Assembly (NCBI GenBank): GCA_026982705.1
Contig: JALSGP010000033.1
Coordinates: forward strand, 248,001 to 312,000
Source: Alphaproteobacteria bacterium
GTDB taxonomy: Bacteria; Pseudomonadota; Alphaproteobacteria; Geminicoccales; Geminicoccaceae
Length of the DNA: 64,000 nt
Direction of reading: 5' to 3'
Shown here: in pieces, positions 2,950 through 17,655 of the stretch
Layout of the letters: the number at the start of each line of letters is the position of its first letter
How positions within the stretch are numbered: the first letter of the stretch is position 1
The notes under the pieces: model-generated
The model's database searches: none
What the model was told of the DNA's origin: nothing
Seen by the model: only the letters and a program-made list of their open reading frames with translations
Program-made: the position numbers and the translations under genes

Positions 2950-3617
2950 GGCGAGGTCCTCCGGGCTTCGAGGGCGGAATCGACCGCGGCGCGCAGGCGG
3001 CGGGCCGCCGCCTCCACGTCCTCGGCCATGAAGATGGCGGAGATCACCGCCACGCCGTCGGCACCCGCGCGGATCACCTCGGCGGCGTTGGCGGCGGTGA
3101 TGCCGGCGATGCCCACCACCGGAAAGCCGGGCGCACGGGCGCGCAGGCGGGCGATCAGCCGTGCGAGCCCCTCCGGGCCCAGCGGAGGATCCCCGGGATC
3201 CTTGGTGGCGGTGGGATGGACGGGGCCGAGGCCGGCGTAGTCGGCGACGGCGGGATCGATGGCGTCCACCTCCTGCGGACGGTGGGCGGTGACGCCGATC
3301 ACCGCCCGCGGCCCCAGCAGACGACGGGCATCCTCCGGCGCCATGTCCTCGCGACCGAGATGGACGCCGGCGGCCCCGGCGGCCAGCGCCACGTCCACCC
3401 GGTCGTCGACGACGAGGGGCACGCCCAGCGGCGTGAGCCGGGCCAGGAGTGTCCGCGCCAGCGCCACCGCCCGCCGGGTGTTCCGACCCTTGTCGCGGAG
3501 CTGGAGGAGGGTGGCGCCGCCGCGAGCCGCCGCCTCGGCGAGGGCCACGGGATCGCACCCGCCCGTCCGGTCCGGGTCGAGGATGGCGTAGAGGCGGAGA
3601 TCGAGGGCGGGTCTCAT
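2946..3617 (-). CDS. thiE: thiamine-phosphate synthase
   Basis: Joins HMP-PP to the thiazole phosphate to give thiamine phosphate. 223 aa, TIM-barrel family of normal length. Recognisable motifs are LQLRDKGRN, the HLGREDM phosphate/Mg region, [11 protein letters not shown] (pyrophosphate binding) and [14 protein letters not shown] near the C-terminus. The ATG at 3617 overlaps the thiM stop by 4 nt and the 3' end overlaps thiD by 4 nt, so thiM-thiE-thiD are translationally coupled. The three enzymes form the salvage half of the pathway; no thiC, thiG or thiS lies in the window. Confidence 0.97.
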
Positions 3618-4384
3618 CGCGGATCGCTCCCCTCGCGGAGGGTGGCGGGGTCGAGGTCGGCGAGGGCGTCCAACAGGTGGACCGCCAGGGTGCCGGGACC
3701 GGCGGCGCGCGCGTCCGCCACCTCCGCCGCCACGGCGAAGACCAGCAGCGCCGCCGCGATGGCGAGAAAGGCGTCGGCCTCGACGGCGAGGAAGGCGCCG
3801 GCCAGTGCCGAGAGGGCGCAGCCGGTGGCGGTGATCCGGTCCAGCCGCGGCGTGCCGCGGGCGATCGCCACGCGCCGGTGGCCGTCGGTGACGAGATCGA
3901 CGGGACCGGTGACGGCCAGCACGGTGCGGAGGCGGCGCGCCCCGGCGGCGATCTCCGCCGGCCCGCGGCCGGCCAAATGGGCCGCCTCCCTCCGGTTGAG
4001 GCGGACGGCGGCGGGGCTGCGGGCGAGGAGGGTGCGGGCCAGGCGGCCGCGCGCGCCGGCCATTTCCAGCTTCACCGGGTCCAGCAGCCACGGCAGACGT
4101 CGCGCCTCCGCCACCGCCGTCGCGAGATCCACGGCGATCTCGCGGTCGTGCTCGAGCATGCCGAGATTGACCACCAGCGCGTCGGCGGCGGCGAGGAAGT
4201 CGGGGAGATCGCGCGGGCGCGCCGTCATGGAGGGTTCGGCGCCGACGGCGGCGAGGGTGTCGGCGGAGCGGCGGGCGGCGACGGGGCTCGTGAGCACGTG
4301 CACCCGCGGTCCGCGGGCGCGCACCCGCTCCAGCAGCTCGCCGGCACGACGGGGAAGCTCGCGGTCGCTCTCAGTCCCGCCCAT
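3614..4384 (-). CDS. thiM: hydroxyethylthiazole kinase
   Basis: Phosphorylates 4-methyl-5-hydroxyethylthiazole for thiamine salvage. 256 aa from the ATG at 4384. An in-frame TTG at 4447 would add 21 residues, but it lies in the 3' strand of riboswitch stem P1; the ATG has a GGGGGA Shine-Dalgarno 5 nt upstream and matches the family N-terminus. The sequence has VHVLTSPVAARRSADTLAAV, LLDPVKLEMAG and ATGCALSALAGAF, the catalytic Cys-containing loop. The DPV-loop differs from the glycine-rich form of E. coli-type ThiM but resembles an alphaproteobacterial variant. First gene of the operon and the direct target of riboswitch control. Confidence 0.93.
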   Translation of the reverse strand: MGGTESDRELPRRAGELLERVRARGPRVHVLTSPVAARRSADTLAAVGAEPSMTARPRDLPDFLAAADALVVNLGMLEHDREIAVDLATAVAEARRLPWLLDPVKLEMAGARGRLARTLLARSPAAVRLNRREAAHLAGRGPAEIAAGARRLRTVLAVTGPVDLVTDGHRRVAIARGTPRLDRITATGCALSALAGAFLAVEADAFLAIAAALLVFAVAAEVADARAAGPGTLAVHLLDALADLDPATLREGSDPR

Positions 4385-4388
4385 GACC

Positions 4389-4417
4389 GTCCCCCGGAGC
4401 GCGGCCGGTCGGGGGAC
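4389..4417 (-). promoter_or_regulatory. Shine-Dalgarno-sequestering hairpin between the TPP aptamer and thiM
   Basis: Perfect 8-bp inverted repeat, GTCCCCCG at 4389-4396 and CGGGGGAC at 4410-4417, with a 13-nt loop. On the transcript the 3' arm contains GGGGGA, the thiM ribosome-binding site, ending 5 nt before the ATG at 4384. No T-run follows, so it is not a terminator. This is the layout expected of a translational TPP riboswitch: ligand binding frees the 5' arm to mask the ribosome-binding site. The alternative pairing that keeps it open was not worked out. Confidence 0.72.
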
Positions 4418-4440
4418 GATGCGGGCACCGCGGTGTCGGC

Positions 4441-4538
4441 ATCTCAATTCCCTCCGCCGGTACGAACCGGATCAGGTTCGACGGGTTGCCGCGAGGCTAC
4501 GCGGCTCTCAGCGCCTTCCCGGCGCACCCCGTTGAGAT
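4441..4538 (-). promoter_or_regulatory. TPP riboswitch aptamer (THI element)
   Basis: Read on the minus strand it has the THI-box hallmarks: GGGGTGC near the 5' side, GCTGAGA (complement of 4506-4512), AACCTGATC (around 4470-4478) and GTACCGGCGGAGGGAA near the 3' side. P1 closes with a perfect 7-bp stem, ATCTCAA (4532-4538) with TTGAGAT (4441-4447). It lies about 57 nt upstream of the thiM ATG, and its 5' end sits just after a promoter whose predicted start is near 4541. It should turn the whole thiM-thiE-thiD-transporter operon down when thiamine pyrophosphate is high. Confidence 0.97.
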
Positions 4539-4547
4539 CCCGACGGC

Positions 4548-4576
4548 CATATGGAACGGCGCCGGGACGGGGACAA
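4548..4576 (-). promoter_or_regulatory. sigma-70-type promoter of the thiamine operon
   Basis: On the minus strand, TTGTCC (4571-4576) and CATATG (4548-4553) are separated by exactly 17 nt. The predicted start near 4541 lies three bases before the first base of riboswitch stem P1, so the aptamer would occupy the very 5' end of the message. The -10 box is only a partial match to TATAAT; the geometry relative to the aptamer is the main support. Confidence 0.55.
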
Positions 4577-4691
4577 GGGCCCGGGTGCGACGGCGGGCAC
4601 CGTGGAACGGGGGCGGAGCGGCCTCGACGCGTCGCCGGCGGGAGGCTAGAAGGTGGCCGGTCGTGCACGCGGGGCACGGGGGAGCGCATCG

Positions 4692-6188
4692 ATGGCCAAG
4701 GACATCGGACATTTCATCGGCGGCCGGCACGTGGCGGGTGAGAGCGGCCGCTTCGGTCCCATCCACGATCCGGCGACGGGAGAACGGACGGGCCGGGTGG
4801 CCTTCGCCACCGCCGCGGAGGTGGACCGGGCGGTGCAGGCGGCGAAGAAGGCGCAGCCGGCCTGGGCGGCGCTGCCGATCATCCGCCGCACGCGCGTCAT
4901 GTTCCGCTACAAGGAACTGATCGAGAAGCACATGGACGAGCTCGCGCGCCTGATCACCGAGGAACATGGCAAGACCCTCGAGGACTCGAAGGGCTCGATC
5001 ATCCGCGGCCTCGAGGTGGTGGAGTTCGCCTGCGGCGCGCCGCACCTGCTCAAGGGCGAATTCAGCCTGAACGTCGGCACCGGCGTGGACCTCGTCTCCC
5101 AGCGCCATCCGCTGGGCGTGTGCGCGGGCATCACGCCCTTCAACTTCCCGGCCATGATCCCGCTCTGGATGGCGCCGCTGGCGCTGGTCACGGGGAACGG
5201 CTTCGTGCTCAAGCCGTCGGAGAAGGATCCCTCCTGCCCCATGCGGCTGGCCGAACTGGCGATCGAGGCGGGCGTGCCCGAGGGGCTGTTCAACGTGGTC
5301 AACGGCGACAAGGAGGCGGTGGACGCGATCCTCGCCCATCCGGACATCGCGGCGGTCTCCTTCGTCGGCTCGACGCCGGTGGCCGAGTACGTGTGGAAGA
5401 CCGGCACGGCGCACGGCAAGCGGGTGCAGGCGCTGGGCGGCGCCAAGAACCACATGGTGATCATGCCCGACGCCGACCTCGACCAGGCGGTCGACGCCCT
5501 CTACGGTGCGGCCTACGGCTCGGCGGGCGAGCGCTGCATGGCGATCTCGGTGGCGGTGCCCATCGGCGACGAGGTGGCCGACCGGCTGATCGAGAAGCTG
5601 GCGCCCAAGGTGCGGCAGATCCGCATCGGCCCGGGTACCGAGCCCGGCGTGGAGATGGGGCCACTGGTGACGCGGGAGCACCTGGAGCGGGTGCGCCGCT
5701 ACATCGACCTCGGCGTGGAGGAGGGCGCGGAGCTGGTGGTGGACGGCCGCGACTTCCGCATGCAGGGCTACGAGAACGGCTTCTTCATCGGCGGCTCCCT
5801 GTTCGACCGGGTCACGCCGGACATGCGGATCTACCGGGACGAGATCTTCGGCCCGGTGCTGTCGGTGGTGCGCATGCCGACGCTCGAGAAGGCGGTGGAG
5901 ATCATCAACGCGCACGAGTACGGCAATGGCGTGGCGATCTTCACCCGCGACGGCGGGGTGGCGCGTGAGTTCGCCAATGCGGTGCGGATCGGCATGGTGG
6001 GGATCAACGTGCCGATTCCGGTGCCGGTGGCCTATCACAGCTTCGGCGGCTGGAAGCGCTCGCTGTTCGGCGACCACCACACCCACGGCATGGAGGGGAT
6101 CCGCTTCTACACGCGGCTCAAGGCGATCACCGCCCGCTGGCCGGAGAAGCCCCAGGGGCCGGAGTGGAGCATCCCGACATTGGGGTGA
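4692..6188 (+). CDS. mmsA: methylmalonate-semialdehyde dehydrogenase (CoA-acylating)
   Basis: Oxidatively decarboxylates methylmalonate (or malonate) semialdehyde to propionyl-CoA (or acetyl-CoA), in valine and myo-inositol breakdown. 498 aa, normal for the family. ALDH-fold signatures include [14 protein letters not shown], the NAD-binding [11 protein letters not shown], the catalytic cysteine in [14 protein letters not shown] and the C-terminal [12 protein letters not shown]. The frame is open back to 4653, but the ATG at 4692 has GGGGGAG upstream and gives the usual [11 protein letters not shown] beginning. Transcribed alone, divergent from the thiamine operon, with an AT-rich foreign islet directly downstream. 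No other valine-catabolism gene is adjacent. Confidence 0.96.
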
Positions 6189-6310
6189 GGCTCCCTGCCA
6201 GTATAACTTCTTTGCTATGTGCAAGTTGACCGATCCCGCCACTTCTTCAGATTCAAATAATAAGAACACTCTCAAAAGATAAACGCAATTTTTTCAATCA
6301 CAATACGCCA

Positions 6311-7909
6311 TCAGCTGATAGGGCCTTTAATAGCAAGAGCTCTTTCAATCCAACCGACAATACTTTCTCGGCCCTCTCTGTCAATTTCAGATGAAACTCG
6401 AACCAAATCTCTCCATGTTTGCTCTCTGTTCAATGCAAAAGACATTGCTAGAAAATTCACAGACTCATGGCAATCATAGATTGCGCACGCCTCTTCCAAT
6501 CTAGACCGAACTTCTCCATTTTCTGCCCTCCACATCCCAGATAATTTCGTTATAGCCTCGTCAGTACGCAGTATGTTAATAACATACTTCTCTGGGGAAG
6601 TATTACCTGGCAATTTGTAGATTGCATCTTTAACGAAATTTTCATCATAATATTCTTTCAACTCGTCGAGATATCTCTGTAAATACTTATCCTCGACATC
6701 CCCATCAAAAACTGCTAGGCATTTTTCTGCCTTATTCAACTTTCTATGCCATATAAGAGCTTTCGGTATCTCACTATGTGAACCAATAGACGTAATACGA
6801 ATGCGCTTTCGCAATTCTGCTGGAAGGTACGCTTTGAGAAATTCCTCCGCTGCATCATCTTCACAGTATATCTCAACCTCAGGTTTTTGTACGTTGGACA
6901 ATCTCGCCATTGCGTAGCGTGCAGTAGGTTCATAAATAACTCTATGATCTTCCCCAAGTTTTTCGATGTAAACTCGCGAGATTCTTGGAAGAGCATCAAA
7001 CACTACATCAGAATGAGTAGAGATAATAATTTGAAGTGATTTTCTCCTGGCAATTTCAACGAAATGCTTACATAACTTTTTCAACGCATTTTGATGAATT
7101 CCGACTTCAATTTCCTCGATAGCAATTAGGCTTCCTTTATATGCTTTATCTAACATCCACAAAATCTGTAGAACGGCGTCCTCTCCTGTTCCCATATTGA
7201 AACTTGAATATGTGTGACCACTAACTGTTTCACATGAGCGCAAATGATAACGAGATTTTTTATGCAAAAGGGTACTGCTATAATTAGACCCTAGAATGTC
7301 GCAAAATCGTTGTAGCATATCATCAGTAAGCAAAGAGGTGGGATCTGTATCGATACGTGCCTTAAAAAGGTTTTTCAAAGTTCTAACCTCAAATGCTGGT
7401 ATACATCTCGACAACCCAAAATAATCAACAGGTCTCTTAGGGCGCTTATCATAATTCATCCATTTCTTTTTTCCCTTCTTTATGGAAAGCTTCCAGTCTT
7501 CGATCTCGGAGCCGCGGCTACGTTTGCCACGGTAATCCCATTGAATTGAGACGCCTGTAACATCTGGATCGACCGGCCCGCGATAGAAGAAATCCCGAAA
7601 GGTATAATATGACGTACCTTCCGAGTCGGGCTTGCGAAGCGCGTTAAAGGGAGCATAGCCCAATATGCTATGAAATGCGAGCACAGACAGTGCGAGAATA
7701 GTACTCTTTCCGGAGCCGTTTGGCCCCGCAATCGCAGTTATTGGATATCTGAATTCGATATCGAGGTTTCTTATCCCACGTAAACCAGCATCGGTGCTAT
7801 TTCCCGAGGAAGAAATGTGAATAGCTCGAAGCGTTGGATAAGGATATTGTCCGTGTTGCCAGCGCCGCAACAAATTACGCTCGTCGTCGGTTAGACTTAC
7901 GCCGGGCAT
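6311..7909 (-). CDS. OLD-family-like ATPase with C-terminal TOPRIM nuclease domain
   Basis: 532 aa, probably cytoplasmic. The N-terminal half is an ABC-type ATPase: Walker A GPNGSGKST (about 62-70), signature-like FNMGTGEDAVLQIL, Walker B SLIAIEEIEVGIH (about 263) and switch histidine IISTHSDVV (about 298). The C-terminal half keeps TOPRIM acidic motifs, E in VEIYCEDD (about 345) and DGD in LAVFDGDVED (about 401). This matches OLD-type ATP-dependent nucleases, many of which act against phages. There is no UvrD-like partner, so it would be a stand-alone (class 1) type rather than Gabija. The ATG at 7909 has GGAG 9 nt upstream. Strongly AT-rich, so recently acquired. A defence role is inferred. 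Confidence 0.8.
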   Translation of the reverse strand: MPGVSLTDDERNLLRRWQHGQYPYPTLRAIHISSSGNSTDAGLRGIRNLDIEFRYPITAIAGPNGSGKSTILALSVLAFHSILGYAPFNALRKPDSEGTSYYTFRDFFYRGPVDPDVTGVSIQWDYRGKRSRGSEIEDWKLSIKKGKKKWMNYDKRPKRPVDYFGLSRCIPAFEVRTLKNLFKARIDTDPTSLLTDDMLQRFCDILGSNYSSTLLHKKSRYHLRSCETVSGHTYSSFNMGTGEDAVLQILWMLDKAYKGSLIAIEEIEVGIHQNALKKLCKHFVEIARRKSLQIIISTHSDVVFDALPRISRVYIEKLGEDHRVIYEPTARYAMARLSNVQKPEVEIYCEDDAAEEFLKAYLPAELRKRIRITSIGSHSEIPKALIWHRKLNKAEKCLAVFDGDVEDKYLQRYLDELKEYYDENFVKDAIYKLPGNTSPEKYVINILRTDEAITKLSGMWRAENGEVRSRLEEACAIYDCHESVNFLAMSFALNREQTWRDLVRVSSEIDREGRESIVGWIERALAIKGPIS

Positions 7910-7940
7910 CTAGGATATCTCCATAATACAAGAAGGACAA

Positions 7941-10613
<2,673 letters not shown>

Positions 10614-10641
10614 GGTCCGTCCGTGGGCTGGGGCGGTGGCG

Positions 10642-11709
<1,068 letters not shown>

Positions 11710-11784
11710 GGAGAACTCGCTTCCGTCCGGGGGTTGTCGCTGCCGCTAAATATAGTGCGGAGGAAGGGCGGGAAACCGTGGGTC

Positions 11785-12795
11785 CTACAGCAGACCGGCG
11801 GCGCGGAAGCTGGTGTGGCGCCCCCTCCCCACCACCACATGGTCGTGGACCGTCACGCCCACCGCCGCCAGCGCCTCCACCACCCGCCGGGTCATGGCCA
11901 CGTCGGCCTCGGAGGGGGTGGGGTCCCCGCTCGGATGGTTGTGGACCAGGATCACCGCCGAGGCGCCCAGCTCCAGCGCCCGCTTCGCCACCTCCCGCGG
12001 GTAGAGGGGCGTGTGGTCGACGGTGCCCCGCCCCTGCACCTCGTCGGCGATGAGCCGGTTCTTGCGGTCGAGGAACAGCACCCGGAACTGTTCGCGCGGC
12101 TCGTGGGCCAGCGTCCCCTCCAGATAGCGCAGCAGGGCCGACCAGCTCGAGATCACCTCCCGCTCCCGCACCGCCTCCGCCAGCACCCGCTTGTGCAGCT
12201 CGTAGACGGCCTTGAGCAGCACCCGGGTGAACAGCAGGTCGTCCTCGCGCACCTGCCGCGCCGCGCCCTCGCCCGCGGCGGTGGGATCGAGACCGAAGCA
12301 TTCGCGATAGCGCGCGGGATCCGCCGCCAGCACCGCCCCCAGCGAGCCGAAGCGCGCCAGCATGTCCTTGGCGATGGGCTTGGTGTCGCGCCGCCAGACG
12401 GAGAAGAACAGGAGCAGCTCCAGGAGCTCGTAGTCGGCCAGCGCCTCCCCGGAGGCCCGCAGGAAGCGTTCGCGGAGCCGCCGGCGATGGCCGTGATAGT
12501 GGGGACGTCCCCGGCCCTCCGGCCGCGCCGCCTCCCCGTCCGCGGCGAAGTTGGCGGGACGTTCGGCGAGGCCACCGGCCTCCGCGAGGGTCTCCAGACG
12601 CCCGGCGAGCCTCGTCAGGGCCTCCCCGTCCAGCCGCCAGACCCGTGCGGCGGCATCCCAGCGGCCGCCCGCCTCCCGCAGCAGATGGCGCAGCGGATAG
12701 GTCCCGCCCCGCAGCACGAAGCCGCCGTCGGCCGGCTCCACGGCGAGGCCGAAGCGGGCGAGACGATCGACGGCCGCGGGAGAGGGGGTGTCCAT
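11785..12795 (-). CDS. radC: RadC/JAB-domain protein with an extra N-terminal domain
   Basis: 336 aa, well above the roughly 220-230 aa of ordinary RadC. Residues about 100-336 are the RadC family: helix-hairpin region [11 protein letters not shown], then the JAB/MPN metal motif [15 protein letters not shown]. The first 95 or so residues form an added unit with [20 protein letters not shown], resembling small domains of the GG-x-WD-x-W type seen on other DNA-related proteins. The biochemical role of RadC is still unsettled; the old DNA-repair name is not secure. Located 75 nt upstream of recA and 9 nt downstream of sfsA in the same direction. Confidence 0.9.
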
Positions 12796-12804
12796 GCCCC
12801 CGGA

Positions 12805-13500
12805 TTAAACCACCGGTATCGTTCTGTCGAGTATGATCTCGCGAAAGTTGACATGGCAGCACCACGCCTCCACCTGCACGCCGGCCGCCCGTGCCCGCGC
12901 CAGGGCCGCGGCATAATCGGGATCCACGTCGGCGGCGGCGGTGAAGCGGTCCACGTCACCGCGCTGGGCCACGAACAGCAGCAGCGTCGCCGCACCACGG
13001 GCGGCGAGATCGGTCAGCACCTCCAGATGGCGGCGGCCGCGGGCGGTGGGGGCGTCGGGAAAGGCGGCGAGGCCGCCGCCGCGGTGCCAGGTGACCCCCT
13101 TCACCTCGATCCACAGCGGGTCGCCGTCGGCGCGCTCCACCAGGAAGTCGAGGCGGGTGCCGGCGCCGGCGCGGGGCTCGGGGCGGACGCGGCGCACCGC
13201 GCCCACCGCGAGCCGTCCCGCTTCCAGCCCCTCCCGCACCAGCCGGTTGGGATTGCGGCTGTCCACCGCCACCGGCCGCCCGTCCTGGAGGATGAGCCGC
13301 ACCGTCCAGGCGAGGCGCCGGTGGGGCGCCGGATCGTGGGAGAGGAACACGCGGGCGCCGGGGACGGCGAGACCGGGCAGGCGGCCGGGATCGGCGATGT
13401 GGGCGGTGACGGCGGTGCCGTCCGCGAGCTCGACATCGGCGAGAAAGCGCCTATAGCGTCGCAGCAGGATGCCTTCGTGCAGGGGGCGGGGAAGACGCAC
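12805..13500 (-). CDS. sfsA: SfsA family DNA-binding/nuclease-like protein
   Basis: 231 aa, the usual SfsA length. It has an N-terminal OB-like part with ADPGRLPGL, then a restriction-endonuclease-like core with [11 protein letters not shown] and [13 protein letters not shown], and ends with [13 protein letters not shown]. The name comes from a sugar-fermentation stimulation effect in E. coli; the biochemical role is not established. First gene of the minus-strand run sfsA-radC-recA-alaS. Its start is only 23 nt from the divergent start of the CinA-type gene, so its promoter must overlap the neighbouring coding sequence. Confidence 0.94.
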
Positions 13501-14734: not shown

Positions 14735-15132
14735 GCCCCGCTGCGGCGCCCCGTTCGGATCTGGCCGGCGAAGGGGTCCGGGCGCAGGCGCCAGCGGCCG
14801 GCGTCGTCGCGGCAGGCGAAGCCCGTGAGGGTGGGATGACCCGCCGCCTCCACGCGGAACCGGCGGCACCAGCGGCCGTCGCGTCGACGGTAGGTCCGCA
14901 GCACCACGATGCGGCCGGGGACGGCGTGGCGCACCGTCACCGGCTCGCCGCTGCGCCGGGTCTCCAGCGTCCACTGGAGGGTGCGGGCCCAGGCGGGTTG
15001 CCGCAGCAGCCGGGTCAGGGAAAGGGACGGGGCCGGATCCGGGCGGCCGCCGGGGGAGGGCGCACAACCCAGCAGTCCCGCGATCACCACCACGGCGGAG
15101 CACAGCCTCCTCCCGGTCCGATCCACCGTCAC
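14713..15132 (-). CDS. small lipoprotein, surface-antigen-like
   Basis: 139 aa with a lipoprotein signal: hydrophobic CSAVVVIAGLLG followed by Cys in GLLGCAPS. The C-terminal half has RWCRRFRVEA and GFACRDDAGRWRLRP, the pattern of the 17-kDa surface-antigen (RT821) family tail in which two Cys and the aromatic W/F residues are kept. Probably anchored to the outer membrane. Its ATG overlaps the stop of the upstream acidic exported protein by 4 nt, so the two are made together. Function unknown. Confidence 0.78.
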   Translation of the reverse strand: MTVDRTGRRLCSAVVVIAGLLGCAPSPGGRPDPAPSLSLTRLLRQPAWARTLQWTLETRRSGEPVTVRHAVPGRIVVLRTYRRRDGRWCRRFRVEAAGHPTLTGFACRDDAGRWRLRPDPFAGQIRTGRRSGAQGPEAR

Positions 15133-16070
15133 GATCTCCAGCGCAGCCTCAGGATGATCTCCTCCTCCTCTTCCGGGATCGGCTCGTAGAGATCGCTCGG
15201 ATCGCCGCCCTCGTCGAGGCCGGGGACCGCGTCCGCCGATCCCCCGCCGTGCCGGTCCCCGTCGTCGAAGCGGTCGGAACCGTCCGGACCCTCGTCGCCG
15301 CCGTCGTCGTCCCCGCCTCCGGAATCGTCGTCCGGCCCATCCTCGCCGTCGGACGGGACTCCGTCCCCGTCGGGTGCGGGGCTCCCTTCCGGGCCCCCGG
15401 CATCGCCGTCGTCGGCGGAATCACCGTCATCGGCGTCCGCGGATCCACCGGAACCACCGTCGTCCGGGGTTCCGCCGGCCCCGCCATCGGCGTCGTCGTC
15501 GGAAGACGGATCGTCGTCGGACGGGCCGTCGCCGGAACCGTCCGACGCACTCCCGTCGTCTTCGCCCTCGGCGGAACCGTCGGGCCCGTCGTCGCTCCCG
15601 TCGTCCGCGGAGCCGTCGTCCTCCTCACCGGAGGGACCCTCCTCGTCGGAGGCCCCGTCCTCTTCCCCGCCAGCGGTGTCGTCGTCTCCGTCGTCCGGGT
15701 TCCCGTCGTCGTCCCCGTCGTCATCGTCGGTTCCGGAGCCCGCACCGTCGTCGGAGGCCTCGGTGCCGTCGGACCCGCTGCCGGAGGGGGCGTCGTCCCC
15801 GTCGGAAGTGGCGTCCTCGTCCCCGTCGTCTCCTCCGTCGTCCGAATCCGACGCATCATCGTCGGAATCGTCGTCCTCGTCCCGATCGTCGTCCCGGTCG
15901 TCGTCCCGATCCTCGTCGGACTCGTCCACGTCCTCGTCGGCCCAGGCGACGCCGCCCGCGGCCGGCCACGGGGAGATCGTCGCCGGTGCCACGAGCCAGC
16001 CGAGGGCGAGCAGCGACACGCCCAGCAGCCGGCGCCCGACCTCCCGGATCCTCTCGTGCGTGCGTTCCAT
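15129..16070 (-). CDS. exported, extremely acidic low-complexity protein
   Basis: 313 aa from the ATG at 16070, chosen because GGGGGAGG lies 9 nt upstream; another ATG at 16079 is too close to that site. A basic N-region (GRRLLG) and hydrophobic core lead to a likely cleavage after AWA at residue 44. Residues 45 to about 295 are nearly all D, G, S and E with few other types, then the chain changes to PIPEEEEEIILRLRWRS. No known domain, and no RTX GGxGxD nonapeptides. Calcium binding or a polyanionic coat is possible but unproven. Coupled by ATGA to the lipoprotein gene. The antisense frames over it are compositional shadows. Confidence 0.72.
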   Translation of the reverse strand: MERTHERIREVGRRLLGVSLLALGWLVAPATISPWPAAGGVAWADEDVDESDEDRDDDRDDDRDEDDDSDDDASDSDDGGDDGDEDATSDGDDAPSGSGSDGTEASDDGAGSGTDDDDGDDDGNPDDGDDDTAGGEEDGASDEEGPSGEEDDGSADDGSDDGPDGSAEGEDDGSASDGSGDGPSDDDPSSDDDADGGAGGTPDDGGSGGSADADDGDSADDGDAGGPEGSPAPDGDGVPSDGEDGPDDDSGGGDDDGGDEGPDGSDRFDDGDRHGGGSADAVPGLDEGGDPSDLYEPIPEEEEEIILRLRWRS

Positions 16071-16123
16071 CGAAGGCATCCTCCCCCGGATCGATGTCCC
16101 GCCGCTTCCCCCCGTGGCACGGC

Positions 16124-16142
16124 AACCTTGCCGTAACCTTGC
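16124..16142. repeat. tandem AACCTTGC repeat in a divergent intergenic region
   Basis: AACCTTGC occurs at 16124-16131 and again at 16135-16142, an 11-nt period. Eleven-base direct repeats are the usual binding pattern of OmpR/PhoB-family response regulators. It lies 54 nt upstream of the acidic-protein start and 104 nt upstream of the divergent FAD-dehydrogenase start. Two copies can arise by chance, so this is a weak call. Confidence 0.3.
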
Positions 16143-16245
16143 ACGCGACACACGAGCGAGGCAATCGCCCCATACGCGGATATGCTCTTCCCTGCCGTCC
16201 CGTTCCGTGCCACAGCGGGGGTGGTGCGGGAAGGGGCGATCCGTC

Positions 16246-17655
16246 GTGTCCGCCGAGGTCCCATCCGCCGCCCGTGAAGGGGTGCTGGCCGAGCTGGAGA
16301 CCCGTTTCGGCCCGCGTGCCTCGCGCAATCCCACGGTGCGGGCCCAGCACGGTCGTGGCGAGGCGTGGCATCCGGCCATGCCGCCGGAGCTGGTGATCTG
16401 GCCCGAGAGCACCGCCGAGGTGGCCGAAGTGCTGGCCCGCTGCCACGAAGCGCGCGTTCCGGTCGTGCCCTTCGGGGCCGGCACCTCCCTCGAGGGTCAC
16501 GTGCTGGCCCCCGAGGGCGGCGTCTGTCTCGATCTCTCCCGCATGGACCGCATCCTCGCCGTCCAGGTGGAGGACATGGACGCGGTGGTGCAGCCCGGCG
16601 TCACCCGCCGCCGGCTGGAGGAGCATCTGCGCGACAGCGGCCTGTTCTTCCCGGTGGATCCCGGGGCCGATGCCACGCTCGGCGGCATGGCGGCGACCCG
16701 CGCCACCGGCACCACCACCGTCCGCTACGGCGGCATGCGGGAGAACGTGCTGGCGCTGGAGGTGGTGCTGCCGGGCGGGCGGGTGCTGCGCACCGGCACC
16801 CGCGCGCGCAAGTCGGCGGCCGGCTACGACCTCACCCGCCTGTTCCTGGGCTCGGAGGGCACCCTCGGCGTCATCACCGAACTCACCCTGAGGCTGTGGC
16901 CGCGGCCGGAGCGGACGGCCGCCGCGGTCTGCGCCTTTCCCTCGGTGGAGGCGGCGGTGGACGCGGTGGTGGAGACGGTGGCCACGGGCATCCCGGTGGC
17001 CCGCATCGAACTCCTGGACGAGCTGCAGATGCGGGCCTGCATCGACTTCGCCCGTCTCGACGATCTCGCCCCGGTACCGACCCTGTTCTACGAGTTCCAC
17101 GGCAGCGAGGCCTCGGTGCGGGAGCAGGCGGAGCTCGCCGGCGAGATCGCCCGCGCCCACGGCGGCACCGCCTTCCGCTGGGCGACGCGGCCGGAGGAGA
17201 TGCGGCGGCTGTGGCGGGCCCGTCACGACGCCTTCTACGCCGCCAAGGCGCTCCGTCCCGGCGCCGAGCCCTGGGTCACCGACGTGTGCGTGCCGGTCTC
17301 GCGGCTGCCGGAACAGATCCGGGCCGCCCGCGCCGATCTGCACCAGCTCGGCATGCCCGCCACCATCCTCGGCCACGTGGGCGACGGCAATTTTCACGTG
17401 ATCCTGCTGGTGGATCCGCGGGCGGAGGAGGAGTGGGCGCGGGTGCGCGCCTTCAACGCGCGGCTGGTGGAACGGGCGCTGGCCGCCGAGGGGACCTGCA
17501 CCGGCGAGCACGGCGTGGGGCTCGGCAAGAAGGTGTGGCTCGCCCGCGAGCTGGGACCGGAGGCGGTGGCGGCCATGCGCGCCCTCAAACGCGCCCTCGA
17601 TCCCCACGGCATCATGAACCCGGGGAAGATCGTGGATCCGGACGGGGCCGCCTAG
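16246..17655 (+). CDS. FAD-linked D-lactate dehydrogenase/glycolate-oxidase family protein
   Basis: 469 aa from a GTG at 16246 with AAGGGG upstream; the frame is open far beyond, but that part is antisense to the acidic protein. PCMH-type FAD domain: VVPFGAGTSLEGHVL, DPGADATLGGMAATRATG, FLGSEGTLGVITELTL. C-terminal substrate/cap domain: LGHVGDGNFHV, CTGEHGVGLGKK, HGIMNPGKI. This is the cytochrome-linked D-lactate dehydrogenase (DLD/GlcD) pattern, feeding electrons to the quinone pool or cytochrome c. Exact substrate is not readable. Stands alone, convergent with cueR. Confidence 0.9.
   Translation: MSAEVPSAAREGVLAELETRFGPRASRNPTVRAQHGRGEAWHPAMPPELVIWPESTAEVAEVLARCHEARVPVVPFGAGTSLEGHVLAPEGGVCLDLSRMDRILAVQVEDMDAVVQPGVTRRRLEEHLRDSGLFFPVDPGADATLGGMAATRATGTTTVRYGGMRENVLALEVVLPGGRVLRTGTRARKSAAGYDLTRLFLGSEGTLGVITELTLRLWPRPERTAAAVCAFPSVEAAVDAVVETVATGIPVARIELLDELQMRACIDFARLDDLAPVPTLFYEFHGSEASVREQAELAGEIARAHGGTAFRWATRPEEMRRLWRARHDAFYAAKALRPGAEPWVTDVCVPVSRLPEQIRAARADLHQLGMPATILGHVGDGNFHVILLVDPRAEEEWARVRAFNARLVERALAAEGTCTGEHGVGLGKKVWLARELGPEAVAAMRALKRALDPHGIMNPGKIVDPDGAA

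Follow-up and report, generated by a model that had tools for sequence, protein, structure and literature searches.

The gene at 6311-7909 on the minus strand encodes a 532-amino-acid protein of the HEC-04/IbfA family, combines an ABC ATPase with a TOPRIM domain, and begins with an ATG. It lies in a stretch of 64 kb (the window) and is flanked on one side by mmsA (4653-6188, plus strand). On the other side, alaS (7941-10613, minus strand) is located directly upstream on the same strand with a gap of 31 bp and is itself preceded by recA (10642-11709, minus strand). A Shine-Dalgarno-like GGAG (7919-7922, minus strand) is present in the sequence 9 nt 5′ of the ATG, and a promoter and terminator scan around the gene showed no excess compared to shuffled sequences. 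The GC content of the gene is 0.422 overall and ranges from 0.37 to 0.48 along its length, with a GC3 of 0.375, whereas the seven neighboring genes have GC contents of 0.70 to 0.77 and GC3 values of 0.87 to 0.96. When the complete 64 kb (mean GC, 0.73; standard deviation, 0.06) was scanned in 500-bp windows, all windows with a GC content below 0.55 fell on the region of this gene, which represents the single AT-rich stretch. The first-pass annotation had described an AT-rich gene on a GC-rich background, wedged between housekeeping genes and lacking a UvrD-like partner or a second effector, and each of these observations was confirmed; inspection of the open reading frames (ORFs) in the neighborhood revealed neither a UvrD-like nor any other partner adjoining the gene. 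Elsewhere in the window, a TPP riboswitch (4431-4541, minus strand; Rfam RF00059; 78.8 bits, exceeding the gathering score) was detected upstream of minus-strand genes resembling thiM (3614-4447), thiE, and thiD. An ORF at 15129-16484 (minus strand) contains an extended low-complexity region with many D, G, E, and S residues and perhaps encodes a secreted acidic protein, but it may also be a chance frame.

The ABC ATPase domain comprises residues ~25-330 (6920-7837, minus strand) and is matched by Pfam AAA_21 (8.1e-17) and AAA_15 (3e-14). It contains the Walker A motif GPNGSGKS (residues 62-69; 7703-7726, minus strand), the signature MGTGE (residues 239-243), the Walker B motif IAIEE with E266, H272, and the H-loop TH298-299. 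The TOPRIM domain core follows at residues ~340-445 (6575-6892, minus strand), with the acidic residues E350-D351 closing the first TOPRIM strand (6857-6862, minus strand) and the DxD motif D402-G-D404 (6698-6706, minus strand). E350-D351 and both aspartates of the DxD motif were invariant in all alignments made. The protein was aligned with ten HEC-04-like proteins, IbfA included, that share ~22-29% identity with it. In this ten-protein alignment, the ATPase motifs (with G62, N64, G67, and K68 of Walker A), the TOPRIM motifs, LP433-434, and PE439-440 were all invariant, which substantiated the earlier impression that the ATPase and TOPRIM motifs are intact. The last two pairs belong to a family motif, LPGNTSPE (residues 433-440; 6590-6613, minus strand), of which P434, P439, and E440 are also invariant in two further alignments, while L433 is invariant in the ten-protein alignment only. 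The viral contigs L078-L082 encode a separate family of ABC ATPase-TOPRIM proteins of ~590 aa, whose signature reads FAGSGE and whose E, DGD, and PE residues are the same.

The Pfam search of the full protein returned AAA-type ATPase domains only, no Pfam TOPRIM family matched the C-terminal domain, and a PDB sequence search with the TOPRIM domain alone gave nothing meaningful. The structure was examined in an AlphaFold2 model built from 15 sequences (mean pLDDT, 69.6), which was of good quality in the ATPase core and in residues 330-480 and poor in residues 84-190. The best Foldseek match of the full model was the OLD protein of Thermus scotoductus (6P74; E value, 1.3e-13), with low whole-chain TM-scores, and the ATPase half aligned with the heads of SMC, Rad50, PtuA, and AriA (Z, 15 to 18). 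The C-terminal domain modeled alone reached a pLDDT of 80.6. It shows an alternation of strands and helices in which E350 and D402/D404 each come after a core strand. The five highest-ranking rows of a VIA-align comparison were OLD TOPRIM domains (Z, 8.9 to 9.7); AriB scored a Z of 8.0, and unrelated Rossmann-like folds appeared from a Z of 8.9, leaving OLD a margin of about one Z unit; Foldseek with the TOPRIM domain alone gave no match at an E value of <0.1. Since the topology, the invariant acidic residues, and the VIA ranking combine, the model supports a TOPRIM fold for the C-terminal domain, with the OLD domains as best structural matches by a modest margin. The structure prediction that had been proposed as a check of the OLD-like reading thus yielded the expected fold.

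Profile searches placed the protein more precisely. The PADLOC model HEC-04 (PDLC04149, Hma-embedded candidate 4) matched residues 43-448 with 160.2 bits (1.7e-47) and was ahead of the next model, NsnB (65.9 bits, 1.3e-18), by 94 bits. Weaker matches were obtained with AriA (64.5 bits), with PtuA, which ranked below AriA, and with AriAB (33.3 bits), and PHROG 3940 (function unknown) matched residues 43-463. The HEC-04 model is matched by all ten aligned members, among them the product of a gene annotated as ibfA on an IncI plasmid, and a tblastn search with the 532-aa protein recovered an IncI plasmid gene with the annotation ibfA (28% identity; E value, 2e-15). Lopez-Perez et al. 2025 (PMC12111858) describe IbfA as an ATPase-TOPRIM homolog of HEC-04; with ibfA as the only gene, the plating of a P22-like phage drops to 0.05 and its burst size is reduced, and HEC-04 protects against T4 and T5 (PMC12111858). 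As this study ties IbfA to HEC-04, the family is already known and has been tested for defense, with the exception of its mechanism. HEC-04 resembles our protein as a single gene with an ABC ATPase-TOPRIM fusion; however, HEC-04 sits inside an Hma system, whereas the gene described here is located behind recA-alaS. The last ~90 positions of the HEC-04 model remained unaligned, and the relation is distant. IbfA from the IncI plasmids R64 and pUA1135 likewise shares the domains, the invariant residues, and the single-gene defense, but it is encoded in a conjugative-plasmid operon with ydfA-ydeA and not in a chromosomal insert. The assignment relies on the profile score as such and not on a functional threshold for HEC-04, and the identity to IbfA is only about 25%. 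Judged by sequence, the 532-aa protein is a distant new member of the known HEC-04/IbfA single-gene anti-phage family and not a new kind of system.

The nearest alternative is a strict class 1 OLD nuclease (P2 Old or T. scotoductus OLD), i.e., a lone DNA exonuclease or tRNase that is triggered by RecBCD inhibition. Class 1 OLD is defined by its single-gene context (PMC10568477), and our protein shares with it the order of ABC ATPase and TOPRIM, the stand-alone gene, and a TOPRIM fold that is nearest to OLD domains. Its sequence, however, lies at a distance from the Old model of PADLOC: this model is absent among the best 25 matches of the protein, which HEC-04 heads by 94 bits; phmmer against T. 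scotoductus OLD gave only 5.7e-06. The Old model does match 6/10 of the HEC-04-like family members at 1e-10. On balance, we consider a strict class 1 OLD protein quite unlikely. Gabija GajA (class 2 OLD) shares the OLD-type ATPase-TOPRIM architecture, but GajA was absent among the best PADLOC matches, and Gabija was rejected because no GajB helicase is adjacent and the neighbors are alaS/recA and mmsA. A retron effector (class 3 OLD) was also rejected, as an Rfam scan of positions 4000-13000 revealed no retron RNA; there is no adjacent reverse transcriptase, since the gene is the sole ORF between mmsA and alaS. PARIS (AriA-AriB and AriAB fusions) combines an ABC ATPase head with a TOPRIM effector, and the AriA heads aligned at a Z of ~16, but our locus encodes one 532-aa protein with no second gene. 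With an AriA score that falls far below that of HEC-04, as does the AriAB score, and no AriB partner, PARIS was rejected. Of the initial proposal, the stand-alone defense gene was supported by HEC-04 membership, homology to IbfA, and the TOPRIM fold; the undescribed OLD subtype was not supported, given that a PADLOC model and published phage defense data exist for the family. Likewise, the OLD-like character held for the TOPRIM fold, whereas in the profile search HEC-04 outranked OLD class 1/2, GajA, and AriA.

Homologs are scattered. None was found in three congeners, and apart from the source genome only 2/59 relatives matched, namely, G049 (35% identity) and G008 (72 residues of the ATPase only). 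HEC-04 was present in 6/385 genomes of the class, and homologs occurred in 7/398 genomes of the phylum (source genome counted). A pattern search of genomes and viral contigs for close relatives of the protein gave none that were useful. In G049 and G245, the homolog stands alone as an AT-rich gene next to housekeeping genes of higher GC content, and no partner gene adjoins those in G245, G759, and G049. HEC-04 homologs are also found on conjugative plasmids. A viral contig (L076, 2861-5530) carries a homolog with 31% identity directly after a phage-type integrase, and in the lysogeny module of a Streptococcus prophage (L103, 2106-6865), a homolog is situated between a repressor and a methyltransferase-integrase pair. 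In G476 (L111, 1748-7400), an integron integrase (TIGR02249, 4.5e-140) precedes the homolog, and attC-like repeats flank it (at 4568, 6131, and 7362); because of these features, the homolog resembles a cassette of a chromosomal integron. The closest homolog found (G759, 37% identity) is GC-matched to its host; therefore, some copies are old residents, and a recent arrival cannot be assumed for all members. For the gene at 6311-7909, the AT-rich GC3, the patchy distribution, and the homologs on mobile elements indicate a foreign origin, and we conclude from its sequence and context that it was acquired horizontally and recently. An ancestral, GC-matched resident was not seen in the three congeners. 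A housekeeping repair protein (RecF, RecN, or SbcC-like) that is AT-rich by accident would agree with an ABC head resembling Rad50, SMC, and RecF and with the proximity to recA. This explanation is extremely improbable, given that the gene is missing from the three congeners and nearly all members of the class, that its composition is foreign, and that its relatives reside on plasmids, in prophages, and in an integron.

Comparison with the sister species G002 delimited the acquired DNA. Colinearity between the flanks of both loci (79-86% DNA identity) ends at 6193 and resumes at 7997, and this synteny break, together with the GC profile, defines an AT-rich, horizontally acquired insert from ~6194 to ~7987. 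The insert supplies the 3′ end of alaS (7941-7987, minus strand), i.e., the last ~15 codons and the stop codon, as judged against the tails of G001, G002, and G003. The alaS tail of G002 is likewise insert supplied and ends ...IRHEFDTLLTLL, and alaS of G003 has a GC-rich native tail. The inserts of the window and of G002 are both AT-rich and share no significant similarity: instead of a HEC-04-type gene, the mmsA-alaS junction of G002 carries unrelated cargo (L058, 4381-5700), consisting of a ParA-family ATPase (AAA_31, 7.1e-38) and a 126-aa ORF, directly behind alaS and on its strand. alaS was detected in 29/30 relatives, and among the 27 loci with downstream sequence, only the window and G002 showed DNA far more AT-rich than alaS following the gene. 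No empty mmsA-alaS site was found among the congeners read, since only G000 and G002 have these genes adjacent. At the insert, neither an integrase nor an attC site was detected, and target-site duplications or terminal repeats were not convincing; an inverted repeat of 7 bp (GTGAAAC-N5-GTTTCAC) where the insert meets alaS was within chance expectation. An integron cassette was rejected for the window copy, as positions 6189-6320 fold no better than shuffled sequences (z, 0.4 to 0.8).

The gene could be a passenger of a decayed mobile element that confers no present benefit, and both the lone gene in a 1.8-kb AT-rich insert without an integrase and the unrelated cargo at the G002 junction are compatible with this. 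However, the frame and all motifs are intact, a ribosome-binding site is present, and the gene starts 31 bp after alaS, so that we regard a passenger gene as very unlikely. The different AT-rich cargo at the same junction in G002 makes the 3′ end of alaS look like a small cargo site; this comparison rests on two cases, not enough for a hotspot to be claimed, and a literature search on alaS as a known insertion site of defense islands yielded nothing pertinent. A bolder version, to which we assign a low probability, is that the alaS 3′ end is a recurrent cargo site of the genus, where unrelated, integrase-free, AT-rich units of one or two genes take the place of the final alaS codons and rely on the housekeeping transcript for expression, with the HEC-04 cargo cleaving host RNA as its means of defense.

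Most probably, the locus is best explained as an anti-phage system of the HEC-04/IbfA type that consists of one horizontally acquired gene behind recA-alaS and in which the ATPase gates a TOPRIM nuclease. The gene would be cotranscribed with recA-alaS. The N-terminal ABC ATPase would act as both sensor and gate in a dimer or higher oligomer, like the SMC, Rad50, PtuA, and AriA heads, and the C-terminal TOPRIM domain, with E350, D402, and D404 placed for metal ions, would be a nuclease that is restrained until sensing. The trigger may be a phage product or phage-caused damage. Once released, the nuclease would cleave host or phage nucleic acid, and RNA such as tRNA is favored over bulk phage DNA because IbfA does not significantly lower phage DNA copies (PMC12111858). 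The TOPRIM nuclease AriB, which pairs with an ABC ATPase, cleaves tRNA (PMC12409363), and P2 Old is reported, in work cited in PMC13261556, to cleave a host tRNA. The expected outcome is abortive infection, with few phages made by the infected cell. By this reading, the 532-aa protein would confer phage resistance and act as a nuclease.

Alternatively, a HEC-04-type sensor may carry a noncutting TOPRIM domain and defend by binding nucleic acid or by changing how phage genes are transcribed, the mode of action suggested for IbfA. With IbfA, both early and late transcription of the phage change while phage DNA replication is undiminished, and the authors of that study propose a change in transcription rather than nuclease action (PMC12111858). 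In addition, the TOPRIM domain of YbjD is dispensable (PMC13261556), and this keeps the alternative alive. Against it, E350, D402, and D404 are invariant at 20-30% identity, as expected under selection for metal binding, and related ATPase-TOPRIM systems cut nucleic acid (PMC10568477, PMC12409363). We therefore judge a noncutting protein to be rather unlikely and favor the ATPase-gated nuclease. The divergent HEC-04-like alignment reveals which residues never change, namely, Walker A, the signature, E350, D402, D404, and the PE motif, and because it singles them out, the nuclease hypothesis can be tested directly by point mutation. With this gene, a validated single-gene HEC-04/IbfA defense family now reaches a distant GC-rich lineage, and the junction comparison suggests that small defense-like cargo may ride behind a housekeeping operon and not in a defense island.
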